Positions 1 through 54,534 of a stretch of 64,000 nucleotides of DNA are shown here, one piece after another. A program made the translations under genes and the position numbers. Source of the DNA: Trichobilharzia szidati (taxonomy: Eukaryota > Platyhelminthes > Trematoda > Strigeidida > Schistosomatidae). Each line of letters starts with the position of its first letter. The stretch's first letter is position 1. The DNA lies in assembly GCA_944472155.2 (NCBI GenBank), contig OX235279.1, positions 56,765,564-56,829,563 of the forward strand, read 5' to 3'. The notes under the pieces were generated by a model. That model did not search any database. It saw only the letters and a program-made list of their open reading frames with translations, and was not told the DNA's origin.

Positions 1-165
1 ATATGCATTCTGTTGCAGACAAGGGAGAGTGAAAACCCGATGATTGTTCCAATTACACAGTTTCTTTGTTAATTTAATTCGATTGCAAAATAATTCAAAT
101 GAACTGTCGTCAAGATTTGACAGAATAGTTCTAAAATATTTGGGCACCGAGTGAGAAGTAGACAT
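1..165 (-). CDS. Array ORF, unit 1 (truncated by window edge)
   Basis: This is the first 55 codons of the 125-codon ORF found in the other units; the rest lies outside the window. The ATG is at 165, in the position equivalent to 956, 1747, 2538 and 3329. I do not recognise the protein. Confidence 0.4.
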   Translation of the reverse strand, partial: MSTSHSVPKYFRTILSNLDDSSFELFCNRIKLTKKLCNWNNHRVFTLPCLQQNAY

Positions 166-212
166 TTGTCAAAAATTATATTTGTAAAATCTCAGCGAGA
201 TTGAAATGAGTA

Positions 213-259
213 GTTCCAAGGTTTCGTTCGGCAATCTGGTCCGAACTTCTTCAGGGAAA
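213..259 (-). ncRNA. Hammerhead-like ribozyme motif, array unit 1
   Basis: Equivalent to the motif described at 1004-1050, shifted by 791 bp. Confidence 0.5.
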
Positions 260-578
260 TTAATCGAAATCAACATAACAGGGGTTTATATATGAAGGGA
301 AGATCACTTGTTTTTAAAAACTTTGTCCAATCATGAGTCATTCAACAAGTATAATAAACAAAATTCTATGAGCTGTGATCAAAATTTGACCCCGGACTTA
401 CAAATATTGGTCTACCTATGTTAAACACTTTAAACAGAGTGTGTATGTGTGTGTGTGGGTAAACAGTTGTAAAACACTTCTTAACGTCTGCATAAGAAGG
501 TATGGACAGTCGAGAATTTTGACCAAGTATTAATAATTACTGATACATATCCATTTTTTATTTATTAATAAGGATTTC

Positions 579-956
579 CTATGCATCAGCTAACATCACA
601 CCTTCATGTCTGTTCACACTGTTAGTATCTAGAATTTTATGATGAGACGTATTTTGAGAATTATGGTGTTTGGGATTGGAGTTTAGTAGAAGCACCCTGT
701 CGGACGTTTTGCTTTGTCTTCTTTCTGAAGATTGAGCTGCTTTATTCGACCTACTGGAGTTGTCAGGTGACTCGACAGCTACGGATTTAGGATATGCATT
801 CTGTTGCAGACAAGGGAGAGTGAAAACCCGATGATTGTTCCAATTACACAGTTTCTTTGTTAATTTAATTCGATTGCAAAATAATTCAAATGAACTGTCG
901 TCAAGATTTGACAGAATAGTTCTAAAATATTTGGGCACCGAGTGAGAAGTAGACAT
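579..956 (-). CDS. Array ORF, 125 aa, unknown function
   Basis: The ORF starts MSTSHSVPKYFRTILSN and ends in GVMLADA. It has no signal peptide or membrane segment. The middle is Ser/Asn/Lys-rich with a basic patch (KLTKKLCNWNNHR, about residues 32-44). I see no catalytic motif. The Leu/Trp/His-rich stretch followed by Cys and Pro residues is weakly like the N-terminal region of Penelope-like proteins, but that is only a resemblance. The ATG lies about 52 nt downstream of the predicted cleavage site of a hammerhead-like motif on the same strand. Intactness in four units may only reflect recent duplication, so coding status is unproven. Confidence 0.4.
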   Translation of the reverse strand: MSTSHSVPKYFRTILSNLDDSSFELFCNRIKLTKKLCNWNNHRVFTLPCLQQNAYPKSVAVESPDNSSRSNKAAQSSERRQSKTSDRVLLLNSNPKHHNSQNTSHHKILDTNSVNRHEGVMLADA

Positions 957-1003
957 TTGTCAAAAATTATATTTGTAAAATCTCAGCGAGATTGAAATGA
1001 GTA

Positions 1004-1050
1004 GTTCCAAGGTTTCGTTCGGCAATCTGGTCCGAACTTCTTCAGGGAAA
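1004..1050 (-). ncRNA. Hammerhead-like ribozyme motif, array unit 2
   Basis: Read on the minus strand from 1050: stem I 5' side TTTCC; core CTGAAGA (matches CUGANGA); one extra A; stem II GTTCGG / CCGAAC with a 9-nt loop; GAA; then A-CC-T, a one-pair stem III; U17 at 1009; and stem I 3' side GGAA from 1008. Predicted cleavage is between 1009 and 1008. Hammerheads with very short stem III are known from Penelope-like elements and retrozymes. The extra A between core and stem II is the main departure from consensus. The motif sits directly upstream of the ORF start at 956. Confidence 0.55.
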
Positions 1051-1369
1051 TTAATCGAAATCAACATAACAGGGGTTTATATATGAAAGGAAGATCACTT
1101 GTTTTTAAAAACTTTGTCCAATCATGAGTCATTCAACAAGTATAATAAACAAAATTCTATGAGCTGTGATCAAAATTTGACCCCGGACTTACAAATATTG
1201 GTCTACCTATGTTAAACACTTTAAACAGAGTGTGTATGTGTGTGTGTGGGTAAACAGTTGTAAAACATTTCTTAACGTCTGCATAAGAAGGTATGGACAG
1301 TCGAGAATTTTGACCAAGTATTAATAATTAGTGATACATATCCATTTTTTATTTATTAATAAGGATTTC

Positions 1370-1747
1370 CTATGCATCAGCTAACATCACACCTTCATGT
1401 CTGTTCACACTGTTAGTATCTAGAATTTTATGATGAGACGTATTTTGAGAATTATGGTGTTTGGGATTGGAGTTTAGTAGAAGCACCCTGTCGGACGTTT
1501 TGCTTTGTCTTCTTTCTGAAGATTGAGCTGCTTTATTCGACCTACTGGAGTTGTCAGGTGACTCGACAGCTACGGATTTAGGATATGCATTCTGTTGCAG
1601 ACAAGGGAGAGTGAAAACCCGATGATTGTTCCAATTACACAGTTTCTTTGTTAATTTAATTCGATTGCAAAATAATTCAAATGAACTGTCGTCAAGATTT
1701 GACAGAATAGTTCTAAAATATTTGGGCACCGAGTGAGAAGTAGACAT
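1370..1747 (-). CDS. Array ORF, copy 2
   Basis: Its translation is identical to the copy at 579-956, one 791-bp period away. It has the same upstream hammerhead-like motif. It adds no independent evidence for coding beyond the absence of stops. Confidence 0.4.
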   Translation of the reverse strand: MSTSHSVPKYFRTILSNLDDSSFELFCNRIKLTKKLCNWNNHRVFTLPCLQQNAYPKSVAVESPDNSSRSNKAAQSSERRQSKTSDRVLLLNSNPKHHNSQNTSHHKILDTNSVNRHEGVMLADA

Positions 1748-1794
1748 TTGTCAAAAATTATATTTGTAAAATCTCAGCGAGATTGAAATGAGTA

Positions 1795-1841
1795 GTTCCA
1801 AGGTTTCGCTCGGCAATCTGGTCCGAACTTCTTCAGGGAAA
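1795..1841 (-). ncRNA. Hammerhead-like ribozyme motif, array unit 3
   Basis: Same as 1004-1050 except a stem II base change (plus-strand cgctcgg instead of cgttcgg) that turns a U-A pair into U-G, so pairing is kept. Confidence 0.5.
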
Positions 1842-2160
1842 TTAGTCGAAATCAACATAACAGGGGTTTATATATGAAAGGAAGATCACTTGTTTTTAAA
1901 AACTTTGTCCAATCATGAGTCATTCAACAAGTATAATAAACAAAATTCTATGAGCTGTGATCAAAATTTGACCCCGGACTTACAAATATTGGTCTACCTA
2001 TGTTAAACACTTTAAACAGAGTGTGTATGTGTGTGTGTGGGTAAACAGTTGTAAAACACTTCTTAACGTCTGCATAAGAAGGTATGGACAGTCGAGAATT
2101 TTGACCAAGTATTAATAATTACTGATATATATGCATTTTTTATTTATTAATAAGGATTTC

Positions 2161-2538
2161 CTATGCATCAGCTAACATCACACCTTCATGTCTGTTCTCA
2201 CTGTTAGTATCTAGAATTTTATGATGAGACGTATTTTGAGAATTATGGTGTTTGGGATTGGAGTTTAGTAGAAGCACCCTGTCGGACGTTTTGCTTTGTC
2301 TTCTTTCTGAAGATTGAGCTGCTTTATTCGACCTACTGGAGTTGTCAGGTGACTCGACAGCTACGGATTTAGGATATGCATTCTGTTGCAGACAAGGGAG
2401 AGTGAAAACCCGATGATTGTTCCAATTACACAGTTTCTTTGTTAATTTAATTCGATTGCAAAATAATTCAAATGAACTGTCGTCAAGATTTGACAGAATA
2501 GTTCTAAAATATTTGGGCACCGAGTGAGAAGTAGACAT
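2161..2538 (-). CDS. Array ORF, copy 3 (one substitution)
   Basis: Same 125 aa as its neighbours except one residue near the C-terminus (TNSEN instead of TNSVN), caused by a single base change near 2196. A replacement difference with no stop is compatible with either weak constraint or youth. Confidence 0.4.
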   Translation of the reverse strand: MSTSHSVPKYFRTILSNLDDSSFELFCNRIKLTKKLCNWNNHRVFTLPCLQQNAYPKSVAVESPDNSSRSNKAAQSSERRQSKTSDRVLLLNSNPKHHNSQNTSHHKILDTNSENRHEGVMLADA

Positions 2539-2585
2539 TTGTCAAAAATTATATTTGTAAAATCTCAGCGAGATTGAAATGAGTA

Positions 2586-2632
2586 GTTCCAAGGTTTCGT
2601 TCGGCAATCTGGTCCGAACTTCTTCAGGGAAA
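2586..2632 (-). ncRNA. Hammerhead-like ribozyme motif, array unit 4
   Basis: Core, stem II, GAA and stem I as in 1004-1050. Confidence 0.5.
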
Positions 2633-2951
2633 TTAGTCGAAATCAACATAACAGGGGTTTATATATGAAGGGAAGATCACTTGTTTTTAAAAACTTTGTC
2701 CAACCATGAGTCATTCAACAAGTATAATAAACAAAATTCTATGAGCTGTGATCAAAATTTGACCCCGGACTTACAAATATTGGTCTACCTATGTTAAACA
2801 CTTTAAACAGAGTGTGTATGTGTGTGTGTGGGTAAACAGTTGTAAAACATTTCTTAACGTCTGCATAAGAAGGTATGGACAGTCGAGAATTTTGACCAAG
2901 TATTAATAATTACTGATACATATCCATTTTTTATTTATTAATAAGGATTTC

Positions 2952-3329
2952 CTATGCATCAGCTAACATCACACCTTCATGTCTGTTCACACTGTTAGTA
3001 TCTAGAATTTTATGATGAGACGTATTTTGAGAATTATGGTGTTTGGGATTGGAGTTTAGTAGAAGCACCCTGTCGGACGTTTTGCTTTGTCTTCTTTCTG
3101 AAGATTGAGCTGCTTTATTCGACCTACTGGAGTTGTCAGGTGACTCGACAGCTACGGATTTAGGATATGCATTCTGTTGCAGACAAGGGAGAGTGAAAAC
3201 CCGATGATTGTTCCAATTACACAGTTTCTTTGTTAATTTAATTCGATTGCAAAATAATTCAAATGAACTGTCGTCAAGATTTGACAGAATAGTTCTAAAA
3301 TATTTGGGCACCGAGTGAGAAGTAGACAT
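2952..3329 (-). CDS. Array ORF, copy 4
   Basis: Its translation is identical to the copies at 579 and 1370. This is the last full unit before the array meets the Penelope-like fragment. Confidence 0.4.
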   Translation of the reverse strand: MSTSHSVPKYFRTILSNLDDSSFELFCNRIKLTKKLCNWNNHRVFTLPCLQQNAYPKSVAVESPDNSSRSNKAAQSSERRQSKTSDRVLLLNSNPKHHNSQNTSHHKILDTNSVNRHEGVMLADA

Positions 3330-3376
3330 TTGTCAAAAATTATATTTGTAAAATCTCAGCGAGATTGAAATGAGTA

Positions 3377-3423
3377 GTTCCAAGGTTTCGCTCGGAAATC
3401 TGGTCCGAACTTCTTCAGGGAAA
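3377..3423 (-). ncRNA. Hammerhead-like ribozyme motif, array unit 5
   Basis: Core and stem I are kept. Stem II carries the same G-U pair as unit 3 and the loop has one substitution (plus-strand cggaaat). Confidence 0.5.
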
Positions 3424-4106
3424 TTAGTCGAAATCAACATAACAAGGGTTTATATATGAAAGGAAGATCACTTGTTTTTAAAAACTTTGTCCAATCATGA
3501 GTCATTCAACAAGTATAATAAACAAAATTCTATGAGCTGTGATCAAAATTTGACCCCGGACTTACAAATTTTGTTCTACCTTTGTTAAACTTTTCAAACA
3601 GAATTTCCATTTATGCGTGATTTTTCTATAACTTTCTCTTGGAAATTCCTACCTTTTGTTTGCTGGCCTATTTTATCCAACAGACTTGGTTTTGTCATTC
3701 GCTCTCTGTGGATGGATTTTGACGCACAGGTAGTATCAGCTGTATTATTCTGCCACAACTATGTGCATTTATCATTTGAACTGCACCTGCGGTGACAGTT
3801 ATATTGTGTGTACTTTTAGACAGCTTAGCCTCCTTTTTTGTGTACATCTCCCATCGTGGTTTGGCGAAGGAGATACAAAAACAATTCTTAGCTCATTTTT
3901 GTCACACTTAATTGATAGCTTTCATGTAAACGAGAAATCGAGAGCCCTCAAATTAATTCATCGTATCCCACCGAATCCTTCGAATAGACTTCGTATTCGT
4001 TTATTGGACACAGCTGAGGCGATAGGCACTCGAACTATTAAACCTAAACTATGTATTCAAAAAACGTTCGTACAGCCATTATCCCTCGCTTGGCCTTTTA
4101 AGACAT

Positions 4107-4509
4107 TTTACGAGTTGATCACGGACTGATATCAGTTAAAGAAACATTGAAAACCTGGGAGTACTGTACAGCTGCTGTTTCATCCTAGTTTGGGAATCAT
4201 CGGCAGTACGCACCCATTGGGATTCGAACCCAGGTCCTTCCGGTTACAAGGCCAGTTCGTATACCATTCAGCCACTAGGACTTAATTCTTTGGCTCATGA
4301 ATTCTAACCTCTACCAATTCGTGATTTAACGCAACCCCAACCATTGTCGTTGGTGGGACATCCATCCACACACGTGACATCTAATTTGATCTCACTGGTC
4401 ACGACTTCTCACTAGAACTCCAGGAAGCTCCAACCTGTAGCAAGTCACTAGCGAGCATCAGATTTATTTTCTACAGTTTGGTTTGTAAGGGTTAGTTATG
4501 TTTTACGAG
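4107..4509 (-). mobile_element. SmA-type hammerhead SINE inserted in Penelope UTR, with target duplication
   Basis: TTAAGACAT occurs at both edges (4098-4106 and 4510-4518), and the unfilled site exists once at 51395-51403 in the second Penelope copy. On the minus strand, box A (TGGCTGAATGG, 4264-4274) and box B (GGTTCGAATCC, 4220-4230) give a tRNA-like Pol III promoter, followed by a hammerhead at 4161-4209. Both ends carry CTCGTAAAA: the element starts inside its 3' tail and ends inside it. The 403-bp insert is therefore a circular permutation of one unit. Confidence 0.85.
4161..4209 (-). ncRNA. Hammerhead motif of SINE at 4107-4509
   Basis: Minus strand: stem I GTACTG / CAGTAC (6 bp); core CCGATGA (U4 changed to C); weak stem II TTCC / GGAT; GAA; stem III ACAG / CTGT; cleavage position A. 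Architecture is complete, but the C at core position 4 probably lowers or abolishes activity. Confidence 0.6.
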
Positions 4510-4918
4510 TTAAGACATAACCAACTAATGACTTCTACATCACCCATTGTTTATATTTTCAACCCTTTTCTTATCATCCCTTAATCTTATCTTCATTATA
4601 AACGTGTTTCATTTCCTTCCCTTACAATCTAACATTACTTAATCGGTTCATTTGTTTTTACTAGCCTTTATCGACTACTTCCACCTGAACAGTTGTTTGT
4701 TTAATCATGCTGTTTTTCATTATTCGTGTTATCACAGATTGCCTCACTTTTGCATCCTTATTATTGATAAGACCATTTTTATTATTACTATTATTGTTAT
4801 CATTACTACTATTATGACTAATTGCACAATTTATATTCACCATCGTATTATCCTATAGACAAAACACCATGATTAGTTTATATATGCATTTTGATTTGTA
4901 AACTTATATATATTAGAG

Positions 4919-4962
4919 TTAAGCCTGATGAGATCTAATTGAAAACAGTATTGTTCGCTTAA
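4919..4962 (+). ncRNA. Hammerhead ribozyme in Penelope family A 3' end
   Basis: All parts fit: stem I TTAAGC (4919-4924) with GCTTAA (4957-4962), six pairs; core CTGATGA; stem II GAT / ATT with a 3-nt loop; GAA; stem III AACA / TGTT with loop GTAT; C at 4956 as the cleavage base. The second copy at 51797-51840 keeps the same design. Hammerheads in Penelope-like 3' ends are established knowledge; I infer activity from pairing only. Confidence 0.75.
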
Positions 4963-4985
4963 ATATGTTGTTCTAAATTTTACTA

Positions 4986-6439
4986 TGGAAATATTTAATA
5001 TATTAAATGACTTTGATAACCTTCATGTTTCGGTGTTCTGCATTTTTTCAGGACCTCTGATTATTCTTTCACAAAAGATTGTTTGTGGTAACATTAAGTG
5101 CAGTTCAGTTAGTCCACAGTCAAAGGAAAACTAAAACTCCTATTCAGAAAAGATATTAAATATGTTACTTATTTAGCAGTCAAACAATGAAAATTGTCCA
5201 GTTACTCAAATATGAACCTAATACTTTCGTTAATATTGTGTACACACACTTCACAATGAATTTCAAAGCAAGAATCAGTTGACAAGACTGACTGATAATT
5301 GATACCATATGAGAAAAACAATAACATCACAGAATAGTCACCACTACTCACCTTTAGAAATCAGTTCCACTGCATGTCAATAGTTGCAAATAACTGTAAT
5401 CACTTATGTGTTTTCTTCATTTGAAGACTTCAAAAAGAGACACTCGATTTTCCCTTTTTATTCATGGGATGCAGATAGAAAGGGAAAGGTTCTAGGACGA
5501 GACGTAATTGTTTTTAATCAGCACAAGTTGCAAAGACAAGGCGGGGAACACTTTCAATATTCACTTTCACTTGTCTTAAAAAGACGATCTGAATTCATAT
5601 AAATGATTCACAATAATGTTGTATTATCCGGGCCTTTGATAAGTAAGTGAACATATACAAATGCTTGATTTTTCTCAGAATATGACGAAATGAATGCTGA
5701 TGAAATAACTTATCCATAGTGATAAAATGTTGTAGAGGAGATATTAAACTTCAGTGAACCTTAGATTGTCATCAATCAATGTCCATTTTATCAACTCACT
5801 GTAGTGATAATTTAAATATTCACCAATTAACGAGGATGAATGTAACTTTATTGAATTATTTTCCAAATGAAGTAAGTTAGGTCTATTATAAACGCATACG
5901 CCGTCACATTAGAAGCTTATATGACATTTCAGGTGTCTTTTACCTAAGCCTTGTTATTAATATTAGTCCTTTATATATCTGCAAGAAAAATGCTACCATC
6001 AACCACTTAAGTGAGACACATTAAGTAAGAGGAAATAGACAAAGAAAAGTCGATATACATTTGCAGCAATAACAGAAAGTAAACAAAATTTAAAAATATC
6101 AGGAACTGATGAATCTATTCAGGATTGTTGTTTGTTCGAAAACAAGTGAGCAACTATAGAGAATAGTCTTCTTTATTTTGATTCATTGAAACCATCTCTT
6201 TCCAAGTTGAACAGGAAGTCACAAGGGTGCAATGTGTTCATTTCTAGAGTATTCAAAGAATGATTGCATCTAATTTTGTTTGTACCACACCCCTATTCTT
6301 TTGAAATTATCCCGATAGTACTGTCATATTCACCAGGTAATAAAAATTGTTAGATCGTCAATGTGAGACAAAAGTAGTGAAAAGGACTACTCACTATCTG
6401 TAAACAAGAAGCCTCTATACATACGACTGCAATTCAAGG
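4986..6439. other. AT-rich DNA, nothing recognised
   Basis: Only short ORFs without family motifs. The longest, 72 codons at 5384-5602 on the plus strand, has no motif I know. No tRNA boxes or transposon coding remains seen. Confidence 0.5.
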
Positions 6440-9263: not shown

Positions 9264-11140
9264 GTATTTCTCTGGTATGGCAGGTAAACGCCAATAAGTG
9301 TCAGCAGCTTTGAGACTACCTGCGAACTTCAGGTCTGCATCTTCAGAACGTCTTCTTGAAAGTGAGTCGATGCAGTCCACAAAATCTCTCTGCTCGTCTT
9401 CTGTCAGTTAGAATAGAGCGTGTGTTCTTAGTGAAATTTCTCTTTCTACTTCTGGTAGTGGAGTTTTTATTTTACCAATCACATTCAGCGTATGACGTTT
9501 CAAAGAGCGATGATTCGGTTGGATATGATTTCACTGAGTACGTTGACAGAGGTATCCAAAACAGAGCAGAGAAAAGGCGAATTCAACTTATCAAATCAAT
9601 AGACAGTCAAAATCCCGAAAAGGATTTCCCTTCAGAACCTTATCGGTATTTCCATGATTTTTCAGTTGTTACACTAGGTAAATTACAGTTAGAAGCACTA
9701 TCATTGGGTCTTAGATTTTGTGACCAAGGATATAAGCTCAACCAACTCGATAGCAATATCCAGTTTAGCAACCTCCTTCTAATAACAAAAGACTTGATAC
9801 CATCATCATATGATGAAGTCGCTAGGTTTAAAACTACATTAGTCGACAGTTGTCAGCGGTTTAAAAACAGTAGTCATTCTAGTAAAAGCTTGCTGGCTAT
9901 ACAAAATCGGAAAGCCCTAAGAAATTTAAGGAACAACGAAGGCATTGTAATCAGTAGACCTGATAAAGGAGCCGGAGTAGTACTGATGAATAAATTTGAT
10001 TATGTTGAGAAAGTGAATTCACTTCTAACGGATGAAACGAAAAATCAAAAGCTTAACACACCAACAGATCTACAAGAAAAGGCTGAAAAGCAGTTAACAA
10101 ACACGCTTAAGGAGCCGAGAAAAAGTGGAGTAATCTCAGAGGCATCCTAAAACCATCTTGGACCTATTGGAAGCAATACTTCACGATTATCCGGTCTGCC
10201 CAAAGTACATAAACCAGGACTTCCTTTTCGCCCAGCACTAGACATGTATAATTCCACCTACCACGGAGTGGCAAAGTGGCTCAGTGCATGGACAGAACTG
10301 TCTGCAAGACAAAATTGTAGACAACAACTGACGTCAATTTTTACGTCCCAAATCTTGGTTATGAGAAGAAACAAGATCAAAGCCTAACCTTGGTGAATTC
10401 AGCAACCAATCACAGCAGACTTATTGTGGGCGGATACGATTCACAGATATATCACCGGACTGTCAAAGAAATGGCAACAAAGAGATGACAGAATAACCTT
10501 CAGCAATGAAAACCAATCAGAAGACGTTACCTCTTTGCTAAAATAACGAACAATAATGTATATAAAAATTTATAATTATCTGTTGGTTTTATTAATAAAC
10601 GATCTATTGCCTGACTCTTGTCTTCTGTCGTTACTCCTCCAAACGTTACACAAGAATATAGTAAATCATAGTGTTAAAGACATTTTTGAATTCATTTTTA
10701 ACGAACATAATATGTAAATGAAAATGGGAAGCACCATTTATGGAGACTGTGAAATTAATATGCCAACAGATACTAGAAAAGCAGTTTGACATCGGAATTC
10801 CAGATATTAGTTTGAGAGAGTTGTTTTAAGATGTACTGCGAATGTACGCTCCAGATTCAACAATCGTTATTGAAGACAAATCGACGGAACTGATATTGAT
10901 TCTCCGATGGGTCCAAATTTAGTAGATATCTTTCTTGCTAAGCTTGAAAATGCTCCAATGAAACAGATAATAGATAAAAAAAGATTCTTAATTTCGTTAT
11001 AATGACGGTATCTACGTTTATTATACTTGATGAGAAAGCTGGAAAGTTGTTTCACTGTCACAGGGTTTTCGCTCTGCTTCAAATCACCGAAAATACCCAC
11101 AGAGCCATTAAGAAAGTAAAAGACAAACGCATCTCTCAAA
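9264..11140 (+). pseudogene. Penelope-like element (family D), N-terminus and reverse transcriptase, broken
   Basis: The frame 9356-10150 is open for 264 codons: a hydrophobic start (residues 24-43), LSLGLRFCD (about 117-125), and ISRPDKGAGVVLMNKFDYV (about 200-218), the conserved Penelope N-terminal motif. It then stops. The reverse transcriptase continues in pieces: SGLPKVHKPGLPFRPAL near 10190-10245, and DIDSPMGPNLVDIFLAKLE near 10890-10945. The catalytic Y-x-D-D block around 10998 is degraded (YNDG). The downstream arm at 11141-11930 supplies the endonuclease tail. The 9356 start is only the first ATG of the open stretch. Confidence 0.8.
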
Positions 11141-20740: not shown

Positions 20741-21344
20741 TTTATTCTTATTCTCTTCTCGTCTTCAAACTTGCACACAATCTAACCATTTGCCCGCCAA
20801 TGGTGACCAAGGTCAATGAACCAACTTTCAATGTTCATATTCTTTGACACTCCTTGGAAAAAAGGGTCCATCCCAATTTTACATAGCGCCGATAACCTTG
20901 AAATGAACAGCCAGCGCGGGAACCTGGGCCAAACGGGACTAGGCTAAAATGGAAAGGCAAGACAAAAAAGCCCAACACACAACAAGCATACCACAGAACA
21001 CAGCCAAGCTCTCCCCGCCGTGGGAAAATTTAGCTCACTGTCGACAGTTCCACTATTGATCTGGTTCACAAAGCAGTGGTTGACTAATATCAATCAGGCG
21101 AAATTCCCGCCCAGCTATATCATATCGAATACACCGAATTTAAAACTGGTCAAATCGTTCAAAAGTAAGAAAAACAGAAACGAAATAGGAAGCAAGGAAA
21201 AAAAACAAGACGATTCACACACGGTGACAAAAAAAAATTAACCGAAAAAAGAAACATCAAATCTCACGAGAATATAGTAAAACAAAGAGCAGAGAGCAGC
21301 ATTAAACTACAAGTAGTAAGAAGACCTCGTAATTATCAAAAACA
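20741..21344. other. GC-richer segment flanking the minisatellite
   Basis: Richer in G and C than the surroundings, with A-rich purine runs near 21190-21240. The ORF 21020-21241 (plus, 73 codons, lysine-rich end) has no known motif. It may belong to the same repeat as the minisatellite, since the right flank at 22290-22440 is also distinct. Confidence 0.35.
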
Positions 21345-22289
21345 CAATCGTGATGATCTGCGTTATTTCGCCTTTTCACGAGTATATCGTTGAATATACG
21401 AGCATATTGCAGCATTGCACTGCAAGTCGTACGTACACCTGCTCTTCTCACTCTCCTCGTCATTACCAACCACATAATCGTGATTATCTGCGTTATTTCG
21501 CCTTTTCACGAGTATATCGTTGAATATACGAGCATATTGCAGCATTGCACTGCAAGTCGTACGTACACCTGCTCTTCTCACTCTCCTCGTCATTATCAAC
21601 CAAACAATCGTGATTATCTGCGTTATTTCGCCTTTTCCCGAGTATATCGTTGAATATATACGAGCATATTGCAGCATTGCACTGCAAGTCGTACGTACAC
21701 CTGCTCTTCTCACTCTCCTCGTCATTATCAACCACATAATGGTGATTATCTGCGTTATTTCGCCTTTTCACGAGTATATCGTTGAATATATACGAGCATA
21801 TTGCAGCATTGCACTGCAAGTCGTACGTACACCTGCTCTTCTCACTCTCCTCGTCATTATCAACCACATAATGGTGATTATCTGCGTTATTTCGCCTTTT
21901 CACGAGTATATCGTTGAATATACGAGCATATTGCAGCATTGCACTGCAAGTCGTACGTACACCTGCTCTTCTCACTCTCCTCGTCATTATCAACCACATA
22001 ATCGTGATTATCTGCGTTATTTCGCCTTTTCACGAGTATATCGTTGAATATACGAGCATATTGCAGCATTGCACTGCAAGTCGTACGTACACCTGCTCTT
22101 CTCACTCTCCTCGTCATTATCAACCACATAATGGTGATTATCTGCGTTATTTCGCCTTTTCACGAGTATATCGTTGAATATACGAGCATATTGCAGCATT
22201 GCACTGCAAGTCGTACGTACACCTGCTCTTCTCACTCTCCTCGTCATTATCAACCACATAATGGTGATTATCTGCGTTATTTCGCTTTT
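21345..22289. repeat. Minisatellite, 130/132-bp units, about 7.2 copies
   Basis: gcgttatttcgcc recurs at 21360, 21490, 21620, 21752, 21884, 22014, 22144 and 22274. Spacings are 130, 130, 132, 132, 130, 130 and 130; the extra 2 bp is one more TA in the gaatata stretch. Each unit contains a hairpin (TTGCAG / CTGCAA) and gtacgtac. Long ORFs run through both strands, but the 130-bp period breaks frame, so they are not evidence of a protein. Confidence 0.95.
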
Positions 22290-22829
22290 TCTCCGGACCC
22301 GTTTCTTTGACCTCTGTGTTGTCACTTTTATTTCATTTCGTATATATATCTGATCCCCTGGCATTCCTGTTTATATCATAATTTAACGCGGATTTCCTTG
22401 ATTCAAACGCTGACTCTTGCTTTTTCCTGAATTGAGTTTACCTGGGGGAACAATTTTTTCTATTACTTCTATGTCTTGCAATGTTTCTTTAACTGATGTT
22501 TATCCGCCTGCAAACTTTTTATAATTCTAATCTCTACAATCTAGCATATGACAATTTAATAGTTGTTTGGATTGGCTAATATAATGAATGATCTGACAAA
22601 GCGGACTAATAATGTGCTTATTTTTTAAAGGAACTTAATAAATTTATTTAGTATTATGTTGGTAGCAGTTCGGAAATAATTCTCTCTGAATTTAATCTGC
22701 TTACGTTATTTCTATAATATTAGTTCCACCTCTGGTCCATATTTTTTGTTATGTTGGCCTTAGTGTGATAGACACATTGAATAGATCTATAGTTCATGAG
22801 GATTTCTAAGTAGTGTCAGCTAGAGATCA
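22290..22829. other. Unassigned DNA after minisatellite
   Basis: No coding or RNA feature seen. Confidence 0.4.
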
Positions 22830-33976: not shown

Positions 33977-34231
33977 GTCGTGAATTGGCAGAAGTTAGAA
34001 TTCAAGGACCATTGGATCGGGTCCCAGTGGCTGAATGGTCTACGAGCTCGCCTTGTAACCAGAAGGTCCTGGGTTCGAATCCCGGTGGGTGCGTACTGAT
34101 GAAGAGTCCCAAACTAGGACGAAACAGCTGTTTAGTACTCCCAGGTTTTCCAGTGGTTCTCTAACTGATGTCAGCTCATGATGAATTTCTCCATGCAATC
34201 AAACAAAATCCCTACCAAACCAATACTTGAA
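33977..34231 (+). mobile_element. SmA-B SINE, best preserved copy
   Basis: Box A TGGCTGAATGG (34028-34038) and box B GGTTCGAATCC (34072-34082) match Pol III consensus. The hammerhead follows at 34093-34138 and the tail ends accaatacttgaaaa. The same 3' tail occurs at 56430-56460 and inverted at 28990. Confidence 0.88.
34093..34138 (+). ncRNA. Near-intact hammerhead in SINE
   Basis: Stem I GTACTG / TAGTAC (one wobble); core ATGAAGA, only C3 changed; stem II GTCC / GGAC perfect with 7-nt loop; GAA; stem III ACAGCTGT; cleavage base T at 34132. Confidence 0.65.
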
Positions 34232-50939: not shown

Positions 50940-51858
50940 GACTTTCAAGGAGTATACGAAGAACATTTTATGCAGCACACCTATGTTTGTCATTCTCTAG
51001 CCGACGAATGATTGGGACGCAAACGAAGGATAAGCTTGATAGTTTTGCCATATCTATGTGCATTTATCAATTCAACTGCACCTTCGGTGACAGTTATATT
51101 GGGCGTACTACTAGACAGCTTAGCAAACGTGTTAGTGAACATCTCACATCGTGGTTTGGCAAAAGACAGACAAAAACAATTCGTAGCTCAATTTTGTCAC
51201 ACTTAATTGATAGTGGTCATGTAATCGAGAAAACGAGAGCCTTCAAAGTAATTCATCGTATTCCACCGAATCTTTCCAATAGACTTCGTATTCGTCTACT
51301 ACACACAGCTGAGGCAATAGGCATTCGAACTATTAAACCTAAATTATGTATTCAAAAAAAGTTCGTACAGCCATTATCCCTCCCTTGGCCTATAAAGACA
51401 TAACCAACTAATGACCTCTACACCACCCTTTGTTTATATTTTCAACCCCTCTCTTATCATCCCTTAATCTTATCTTCATTATAAACGTGTTCGATTTCCT
51501 TCCCTTACAATCTAACATTACTTAATCGGTTCATTTGTTTTTACTAGCCTTTATCGACTACTTCCACCTGAACAGTTGTTTGTTTAATCATGCTGTTTTT
51601 CATGATTCGTGTTATCACAGATTGCCTCACTTTTTCATCCTTATTATTGATTAAACCATTTTTATTATTACTATTATTATTATTACTACTTTTATGACTA
51701 ATTACACAATTTATTTTCACCATCGTATTATCCTATAGACAAAACACCATGATTGGTTTATATCTGAATTTTTATTTGTAAACATATATATTAGAGTTAA
51801 GCCTGATGAGATCTAATTGAAAACAGTATTGTTCGCCTAAGTGTGTTGTTCTAAATAT
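50940..51858 (+). pseudogene. Penelope-like element 3' end (family A), best preserved GIY-YIG domain
   Basis: The frame 50987-51403 is open for 138 codons. YQFNCTFGDSYIGRTTRQL at residues 27-45 (YIG 37-39), Arg48 in KRVSEH, SHLIDSGH (71-78), HTAEAIGIR with Glu109, and IKPKLCIQKKFVQPL (117-131). These fit the GIY-YIG nuclease fold: Tyr, Arg and Glu active-site residues are all present. The reverse transcriptase upstream is absent, so it is a 5'-truncated insertion. The 3' UTR to 51858 ends with a hammerhead. It provides the unfilled target site for the SINE in the 4.1-kb copy. Confidence 0.88.
51797..51840 (+). ncRNA. Hammerhead ribozyme in Penelope family A 3' end, copy 2
   Basis: As at 4919-4962: core CTGATGA, stem II GAT / ATT, GAA, stem III AACA / TGTT with GTAT loop, C at 51834. 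Stem I is TTAAGC / GCCTAA with one mismatch. Confidence 0.72.
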
Positions 51859-54534
51859 TAGGGTTTGATAATTAAAGGCTTTCAGTCATAACAAGTGAAT
51901 CGGTAAACTAATTACAAGGAAGGAACAAGCCCAGTTAGACCTAAATCGAAAAAGCAGTTTGTCAAAATATCGATGGTAATTCCGGAATGCTGAAAAATAG
52001 TGCTAAACGTCTGGTAACCGAGTTTATTAATCCGTGAATATAATGATGCCAAAAAGCAGTGAGAAATTCTGCTAAATACCGAATATGACTATTCTCCCTC
52101 AAATACCATAAGCTCCACCCAGTCATCAAAATACAAGAATACAAAGACTAGCCTGTGATTGAGAGAACAATTTTATAAGATAAACATTTATCGTATGTAT
52201 GCGGTGTCAACAGACATAAAATTAAACCATGTCAATGGTTAAACAAGTTGATTTGATTGGTTGTATGACGTTAAAAATATTGTTGCGTGTGGACAAAATA
52301 TGTCGAATATAATCATCATGTCCTTGTAACAGTATGAGTCTTAGACTGAAAAACAAAACGTAACTGTATAGGTAGTGGCTTAAAATATCGATTCTATATG
52401 CTGTACTCTGAATGAACGTGACGTTACTCCTAACTTCCCCTTCATCTCACTAGAGCTGTAACCGTATTAGACGTTATTAATGCGATGCTGCAAAAAGTGC
52501 ATAACTGATGTTTGTTTGTTAATAAACTTATGAAGATTACGTTTTTTTTCTAATCGCACGAAGAAATTTAATTACACTCCTACTTCATAGTGCACTAGCC
52601 AAAAAAGCTGCTTACATCGGTAGTTTACATAAAAGTGCCACTTAAATGTAAAAGTATGCTATTACAAATGATCACAAGTTAGAGATTGAGCTATAATTTT
52701 AGCTTGATAGGATGACGCTTTAAGTTATTTTCAATTGTTAACCATTTTGTTATTAATTTTATTTTTATTGTAAACACTTATAGGTAAAAATCACAGTTTA
52801 AAGTTCTCTATTTGAGTTTACGTTCAGCTGTTAGAATTCAGTTAGCCTTGATTAGCGATCATATGACGATAGTGTTTACTAAAATGAATCAATCGTAGTG
52901 ATTAATGATATTAGAACAGTTCACATTTTGAATTTACAGTAGAAGAATAACACTGTTGTTCTTTTTTTGTAGTAAACAAGAGTTATTTGCACTTTAAAAA
53001 TCAGTGACAACATTAAAATCAAGTATCTTGGATTAGTTAACCTTAAATTTTCAGTAAATAAAGGCATCTTATTTGAATACTGTGTACACCAGAAGTAATA
53101 ACACAAAATAAGAAACCATCCGAAGTTTTACATTTCAGTTTGTAAAATAATAATGAAGGAAGATAATCACTAGGTTATAAAATATTAAAAAAAGAATAGG
53201 CATCAAAACTTGTGAATACTTGCCTATCGAATTCGTAAAAGTATGAATAGTTTCGAAAATACAACAAGTAGTACTTACGCATTATGTGGATATTATAAAA
53301 AGTGGCATTCAAAACTTCTAGTTAAATTTTGAAAACTGAGTGATTTAAGTCAATTTGTAAATAAAATTCAGTCACCCTGCTATACAGTGCAATCCAGTTT
53401 TAATGACAGTGATGGTGTTTTTCTCCATTTGTGTTAATCAAATCAATATAAATATATATATTTCTCGAGAGGATTCACCGCTCTCCACTAAGATTGTTTT
53501 TATCTGTTGTAAGATTTCAACTGAATAATAGTTTTACACTGAAAAATAATTTTTCTGGTAATGGCGTTATGCAATAATATATGCTCATTACCGAATAATA
53601 CCCTGAACAGTTATTTTTTGGATCAGGAAAAATACTCCATAAACTTTTGAGAAACAATCAGACTGTATTTGCAGCCTATAATTACAAATTAAGACAGGTG
53701 ATAAACGATAAACCTCGTTCTGTCTGACTGTGAAAGGTATACGATTTTTTTATTAAATGTACACTCTACAAAGTGAACACAGAATATACAGCAGTATGAA
53801 ATTATTCTCTAAGAAAAGTTTCATTAGGTAGTGAAATCCAAATGCACAGAATTTAATTAATCCTATTTGATCATCAGGAGCTTGCATCGGGTCACTTTAT
53901 TTATCGACATTGTACAAATAAAAGAGAAAGTTCAGCAAACTTGAAGAATAACTTGGAGTTGGTATTTACTGTCCAGTTGTGTTGCCCAATAGCAACCACG
54001 ATGAAATCCTACTTCAAATTGAAGCAAACACTAAAGATGTTACCTAGACGAAAAATGTAAGCATAGTAATTAAATTAACCAGCTCAGAGAAGAAATCAGG
54101 AATTTTCCCCATAACTTCAGAAGCTTAGAATTACTGACCTAATAACGGATATGAAATAATTATAAAGCTTGATTTATTTTATATCGTGAGTACATCTGTC
54201 AGCAAAAAATTAGGCTGGGAAAAATACTTTTTTCAGTGGCTTTCATAATTCAGAATTACTTCAGCTGATTAGAGTGGACGGGATTCTCAAATACAACATG
54301 TAAATAAATATCCACAGTAAGTGATATCATAGTTGTTTAAGGAGTATTCGATTTGTGAAAATTTGCAGAAAAGCATCCTGTAGTTGCATTAGAACAGCCG
54401 GAACGATGAGTTTAGTCATCTTACCACCTTGACGGAATTTATTAGCTCTTGTGCTCAAGTAGAGCTATACATATACATTGACCTCTGTTTTATTTCAAAC
54501 ATGTACCACAGCACTAATCATTAATTTTTATTTT
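51859..54534. other. Unassigned AT-rich DNA
   Basis: Nothing recognised. ORFs 51962-52144 and 52921-53106 (minus) have no motif. Confidence 0.45.

Follow-up and report, generated by a model that had tools for sequence, protein, structure and literature searches.

What is the 791-bp repeat that opens a 64,000-nucleotide stretch of the Trichobilharzia szidati genome (contig OX235279.1, positions 56,765,564 to 56,829,563; hereafter the window), and why does each of its units carry a motif that resembles a hammerhead ribozyme? A preliminary description of the locus suggested a retrozyme or a Penelope-derived array; the evidence then offered – five motif copies and one G-U pair – was weak. Partial support for that suggestion now comes from duplicated flanks and Penelope-like insertion ends, from motifs of this class that precede long Penelope-like open reading frames (ORFs), and from the compensated stem II of a second repeat family. 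Judging from sequence, the unit is probably a non-autonomous, retrozyme-like retroelement, mobilised by the proteins of Penelope-like elements (PLEs) and bearing a small hammerhead of the PLE type.

The portion of the array that falls within the window is as follows:

1..3602, minus strand (the RNA sense): right-hand part of the 791-bp tandem array
9-799, 800-1590, 1591-2381, 2382-3172 and, partial, 3173-3602, minus strand: array units in the window

Comparison of window phases confirms that the period is exactly 791 bp, with 3-7 base differences among the four complete phases compared. The array itself thus stands as first described, but its limits (given as 1..3571) do not: the right end lies at ~3602, the last 32 bases (3571-3602) being diverged, and the left side extends 18.9 kb beyond the window, stopping at an assembly gap. 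Window and flanking contig together hold 27 full units and a partial unit at either end. Positions within the unit are given below as q1-791, equivalent to window 800-1590.

That the repeat moves by a Penelope-like route is well supported and, in our judgement, very likely. The evidence lies in dispersed copies of the family, 57 matches to which were found on eight large contigs of the 1.11 Gb genome searched (21 of 2,954 candidates scored; the sampling of insertions was not unbiased). Flanks of at least 8 bp are shared at 15 of 21 loci, as against 14 of 420 mismatched left-right pairs, and the boundary of one of the six loci lacking a shared flank (L006) falls within an array. The typical copy starts at q79-87 and runs to about q791, often continuing into the first 36-183 bases of the next unit; it then abuts an oppositely oriented piece, the outer end of which falls mostly at q147-164. 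All 39 outer ends counted (22 left, partly selected by a search that favours long matches, and 17 right, five insertions without a usable second arm – L009, L012, L022, L024 and C6:45.57M – contributing none) lie at two places, 22 at q79-89 and 17 at q147-164, which is what a non-autonomous PLE derivative with two internal start sites would display. These places are:

946..963 (q147-164), minus strand: site A, internal position at which dispersed copies end
878..888 (q79-89), minus strand: site B, internal position at which dispersed copies end

Past the predicted cut, site A follows after about 52 nucleotides (nt) and site B after about 122. Among the first 100 listed of 5,907 genomic matches to a motif pattern described below, neighbouring motifs within 2 kb are ordered (-,+) in 17 cases, (-,-) in seven, (+,+) in one and (+,-) in none; among 100 listed of 753 matches to a second family, a count by eye gave nine (-,+) neighbours and no (+,-). 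The order of opposite-strand neighbours indicates that both arms point the 3′ side of the RNA outward.

The second issue is the motif itself, which occurs in the window in five copies:

214..258, minus strand: hammerhead-like motif copy 1 (stem III ACCT)
1005..1049, minus strand: hammerhead-like motif copy 2, predicted cut between 1009 and 1008
1796..1840, minus strand: hammerhead-like motif copy 3, G-U in stem II
2587..2631, minus strand: hammerhead-like motif copy 4
3378..3422, minus strand: hammerhead-like motif copy 5, G-U in stem II

All five, with CTGAAGA starting at 254, 1045, 1836, 2627 and 3418, share one layout: TTCC, CTGAAGA, an extra A, GTTCGG...CCGAAC (or CCGAGC), GAA, ACCT, T and GGAA. 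The strand, the core, the 6-bp stem II, GAA and the 4-bp stem I had been correctly described, as had the G-U pair in stem II of two units (the copies at 1836 and 3418). What had been missed is the unpaired A that stands between CTGAAGA and stem II in all five copies, none of which has its core joined directly to stem II in the manner of a canonical type I hammerhead; and the supposed minimal stem III is here ACCT, one A-U pair flanking two Cs, which is not a hairpin. In 200 first-order Markov simulations of a 64-kb sequence, the structure as first described (one inserted base allowed, stem II of at least 4 bp, stem III of at least 1 bp, stem I of 4 bp) arose once; the combination of core and 6-bp stem II by itself arose in 8% of the simulations. 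The lowest-energy fold shows stems I and II and is unremarkable (z -1.25; 32 of 200 shuffles fold as well). As evidence for conserved pairing the five copies were set aside: they are one motif, multiplied and later homogenised.

A survey of the genome returned 41 copies of the motif from 30 loci after deduplication by position. The core is present in 39, GAA in 39, ACGT in 40, a full stem II in 35 and a full stem I in 35, while 34 have no insertion before GAA; all features occur together in 22. The extra A precedes stem II in 40 copies, the remaining one being without the core. The prevalence of ACGT indicates that the family is characterised by this palindrome and that the window array is the deviant: family copies have the sequence features of a PLE-type minimal hammerhead, from which the ACCT of the window array departs. 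On account of that stem III, weak or no cleavage is predicted here, and the window array probably cleaves poorly or not at all. The earlier proposal that its transcript would be cut into 791-nt monomers is, because stem III is damaged, least likely to hold at the very array for which it was made.

A broad pattern, CTGANGAN{6,28}GAAACGTT, matches the genome 2,979 + 2,928 = 5,907 times (reversed control: 93 + 106 = 199). Of the 29 distinct strings printed for this pattern, 15 pair six stem II bases from the junction and 14, including second-family variants with a broken junction pair, do not, so that 5,907 is not a count of ribozymes. Rows of this pattern, together with L023, L024, L027 and L028, show four extra bases (ACAG, GCAG, GCTG or TCAG) before GAA; the TCAG insert is complementary to CTGA of the core, and a longer hairpin could there replace the hammerhead.

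The second family reads CTGAAGA-A-GCTGTG-GCTTA-CACAGC-GAAACGTT: it has the same extra A, and three pairs of stem II differ in both partners. In the genome 371 + 382 = 753 places match its exact pattern, and none match the reversed control. Comparable motifs precede long ORFs that we take, from their sequence motifs and architecture, to be Penelope-like. With one such frame from the window (9314-10147) as query, 139 of 10,189 candidates were scored, yielding several dozen long frames of up to 854 amino acids (aa), of which some lie in tandem, as at C8:115.23M, and some head to head, as at C4:34.75M. At five of these loci (frames of 810, 810, 818, 822 and 823 aa) a short upstream stretch was inspected, with helices placed by hand: four contain CTGANGA...GAA with a self-pairing stem III, and in two of these the extra A recurs; in the fifth the core is broken. 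Stem I in the four is TTAAGC/GCTTAA, TAGAGC/GCTCTA, GAAC/GTTC and AAGC/GCTT, compared with TTCC/GGAA in the 791-bp family; the hammerhead form was not reached on folding alone in two of the stretches. The kind and position of the motif are the same, and no close match to the 791-bp unit was noticed in these short stretches, which were not compared systematically. One of these motifs has a near-identical counterpart beside the array, in an element that is probably Penelope-like, to judge in part from the hammerhead at its end:

3670..4982, plus strand: decayed remnant adjoining the array, probably Penelope-like; sister copy at 50965-51860, inserted repeat at ~4106-4511
4919..4962, plus strand: hammerhead with stem I TTAAGC/GCTTAA, CTGATGA, stem II GAT/ATT, GAA and stem III AACAGTATTGTT

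The motif at 4919-4962 differs by one stem III base from that upstream of the 823-aa Penelope-like ORF. The hammerheads at 4919-4962 and 51797-51840 (plus strand) belong to two decayed copies of one element, stem I being intact in the first and broken in the second. Elsewhere (G000:C8:115225437-115238639 and others) 822-aa Penelope-like frames lie in tandem at ~3.08-kb spacing with an inverted neighbour, and a two-armed layout may thus be present in putative autonomous elements as well.

Because stems are compensated across families, and not because of conservation within the family, we consider it likely that the 791-bp family carries a working hammerhead. For this family we infer cleavage, a circular RNA and a helper, which could operate as follows. 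The unit or array would be transcribed with the minus strand as RNA sense; two copies of the motif would pair through the palindromic ACGU of stem III, each unit would be cleaved at q208/209, and the resulting RNAs, one unit long, might be ligated into circles. A PLE protein would then nick the target and start reverse transcription within the RNA at site A or B; the end sites are seen in the insertions, the enzyme is supposed. Extension of both target ends would account for the architecture observed, namely two arms with the RNA 3′ sides outward, a variable inner junction and duplicated flanks. Copies span 700 bp to several units and start 52-122 nt past the cut, yet cross the cut site, from which we deduce that the template must have been a circular or uncut multimeric RNA and cannot have been a linear monomer cut at q208/209.

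How such insertions give rise to arrays can be explained in two ways. Arrays may form in one step, a hammerhead-cut and ligated RNA circle of ~791 nt being copied repeatedly by a Penelope reverse transcriptase; copying from both ends of one nicked target would produce two outward-facing and near-identical arrays with one unit length and one target-site duplication. We advance this tentatively, and regard circles and rolling-circle copying as possible. The arrays may instead be satellite DNA of the ordinary kind, each having expanded from a single insertion through unequal crossing-over, with reverse transcription making at most one or two units – a serious contender, if something short of probable. 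We compared twelve array loci, and sampled a further five places once each. Mean differences between units are 0-0.63% within an arm and 0.3-5.1% to the nearest other array; between opposite arms of three arrays they average just 0.24-0.33%, as little as within an arm. This weighs against a satellite origin, although the arms could still have been made alike by gene conversion. Equally awkward for crossing-over are five arrays with the same spacing in both arms (787, 794, 794, 801 and 803, read by eye), and three multi-unit insertions whose two ends could both be resolved (C1:2.81M, C8:76.66M and C3:22.12M): these sit between duplicated flanks, with 12-13 shared bases, and end at A/B. Three others that were tested reach a gap on one side. 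Sequence and length are nearly uniform within a young group of loci, so that unit length is not private to every array. The satellite account draws its strength from the mosaic sharing of variants, which weighs against synthesis in one step and means that recombination or conversion is at work, at a later stage if not from the outset. Of the 24 variable sites in the window array, 18 have variants common to at least two of the 27 units, in mosaic patterns; variants also recur among the units of C1:2.81M, C6:12.95M and C8:55.96M, and in the third of these across its arms as well. The window array is best explained as a member of the family that was homogenised later by recombination.

The state of the motif differs among arrays. 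Core, GAA and ACGT are present in the units seen at ten of the twelve loci, the exceptions being the window array and C8:55.96M; two of three units at C3:22.12M have a weakened stem I, and at C8:55.96M the first core position is G in eight of 11 units and stem I is weakened in all 11. These two exceptions are long arrays with damaged motifs, the one comprising 27 or more units (ACCT) and the other (L051-L053, L066) ~40 units (GTGAAGA, weakened stem I). The motif is intact at four of the five places sampled once (C1:108.28M, C7:44.03M, C3:119.28M and C8:55.65M, the last with ~24 units), while at the fifth, C6:12.94M (L070), the string used found no match.

The unit also contains a reading frame:

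579..956, minus strand: putative ORF of 125 aa within the unit, alignable with the predicted proteins P0001-P0003 of Trichobilharzia regenti

A search with this ORF matched three proteins, all from T. regenti; searches with P0001 and P0003 gave no additional homologues among proteins of 0.55-1.75 times the query length, Pfam found no domain passing its cut-off in the ORF proteins, and viral contigs yielded nothing useful. The frame of P0001 and P0002 continues upstream across the motif region: in tblastn of the T. regenti proteins the motif sits inside the reading frame as codons for FPEEVRTRLPNETLELL, and in P0001 the stretch corresponds to the codons PEEVRTRLPNETLELL. The best identity of P0001 in the genome is 89% (partial), and at most 87% near full length (150 of 12,382 candidates scored). 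At nine loci the translated stretch from the motif to site B is nearer to P0001 than is the remainder (94% versus 82%, with limits chosen post hoc). We infer that P0001-P0003 are gene models built across the repeat. In P0003 a stretch of 30 residues belongs to the repeat (29 of them identical to the window frame) and is joined to sequence for which no other relatives were found; possibly the repeat has been used as an exon, or the gene model is in error.

A PLE-mobilised repeat whose hammerhead-like motif is inert, and is kept as part of the RNA needed by the PLE protein, is a less probable alternative, and we think it unlikely: an inert stretch would hardly be expected to show the compensated stem II of the second family or the re-paired stem I of the Penelope-like loci. 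Several observations nonetheless favour it. Conservation of the motif does not notably exceed that of the remaining unit (its 42-nt window ranks 184 of 663); seven of 41 copies have 1-4 bases inserted before GAA; two long arrays have damaged motifs; and the stretch is readable as codons in P0001. Against a working ribozyme, too, breaks of stem II pairs in dispersed copies are about as frequent as G-U changes, stem II is just 2-3 pairs long at the Penelope-like loci, and P0002, read back into DNA, would imply a copy lacking the GAA region. The Rfam covariance search proposed in the preliminary description returned no hammerhead – neither the canonical type I model, Hammerhead_1, nor any other – in the window array or in the tested family copy with ACGT. 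The absence of a hit had been named in that description as grounds for refutation; we judge it not decisive because Rfam misses motifs of this class: that at 4919-4962 is likewise unlisted at E<=10 in region 1-5000. The helper too is at issue, since a specific helper PLE was not found and Pfam did not confirm the ORFs that we take to be Penelope-like, giving nothing for the reverse-transcriptase piece and, for another window ORF, a sub-threshold GIY-YIG match of 13.6 bits against a cut-off of 22.6. Finally, in the one PLE tested the hammerhead was unnecessary for insertion and inactive without protein (PMC11167929). The remaining alternative, a chance resemblance in a fragment of a protein-coding gene or in a satellite, would fit the absence of an Rfam hit, the extra A, the 1-bp stem III and the homologous predicted proteins, and is highly improbable; a chance motif in a coding gene was rejected on the hundreds to thousands of copies genome-wide, ACGT, the compensated stem II and the motifs upstream of Penelope-like ORFs.

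The preferred reading, a PLE-mobilised retroelement with a small hammerhead, can be set beside known systems. PAc, a PLE of the lizard Anolis, belongs to those PLEs that have minimal hammerheads in their pseudo-LTRs (LTR, long terminal repeat); it occurs in tandem copies with a hammerhead at the start of the ORF; two adjacent internal starts of reverse transcription explain the 'tail' of its genomic copies, and both target strands are cleaved and extended (PMC11167929). The 791-bp family resembles this element in its tandem or part-tandem copies, in a hammerhead near the ORF start, in two internal starts and in the use of both target strands. It differs in that the unit lacks reverse transcriptase and endonuclease, in the extra A after A9, in arrays of tens of units, and in the distance between sites A and B, ~70 nt compared with the 30-40 bp cited for the tail. 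Metazoan non-LTR retrozymes (PMC7229834, PMC7761336) are likewise non-autonomous tandem units with one hammerhead each and target-site duplications, all of which the 791-bp family has, the hammerhead by sequence only; but their units measure ~150-450 bp and carry a canonical type I hammerhead, whereas ours is 791 bp long, with a minimal PLE-type hammerhead, an ORF-like frame and an insertion anatomy that points to PLEs. PLEs have been proposed as likely helpers of animal retrozymes, the role of their minimal hammerheads being described as a mystery to date (PMC7761336). The schistosome SMalpha and W36.2 SINE (short interspersed element) hammerheads (PMC8490949) are also repeated hammerhead elements; unlike these, the 791-bp array has no Rfam hammerhead match, and the Hammerhead_1 matches of the window lie elsewhere. 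CChMVd, a viroid otherwise unrelated to the family, has in its plus-strand hammerhead an extra A that likewise stands unpaired between A9 and stem II, and the activity of this natural precedent is moderately reduced (PMC3705267). Penelope-like sequences have been reported from T. szidati in a paper whose text does not contain the word hammerhead (PMC4465651), and we saw no description of the 791-bp element in the literature searched.

The significance of the family is that a minimal hammerhead, tandem units and Penelope-like insertion ends are joined in the same copies and in high number. The question of what minimal hammerheads do becomes testable, since deduction leaves only a circular or multimeric RNA as template; moreover, the family suggests a route by which a retroelement can found satellite DNA.

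Other features of the window lie apart from the array. Rfam Hammerhead_1 matches 34093-34138 (plus strand; 43.6 bits), the first core base being A and not C in the Rfam register, and, below cut-off, 4209-4161 (minus strand; 23.9 bits), a decayed relative; both we presume to be SMalpha-like. As these matches fall outside the array, a relationship of the array motif to SMalpha was rejected. A separate tandem array occupies 21325-22291, with a period of 130, 7.4 copies and 97% matches.

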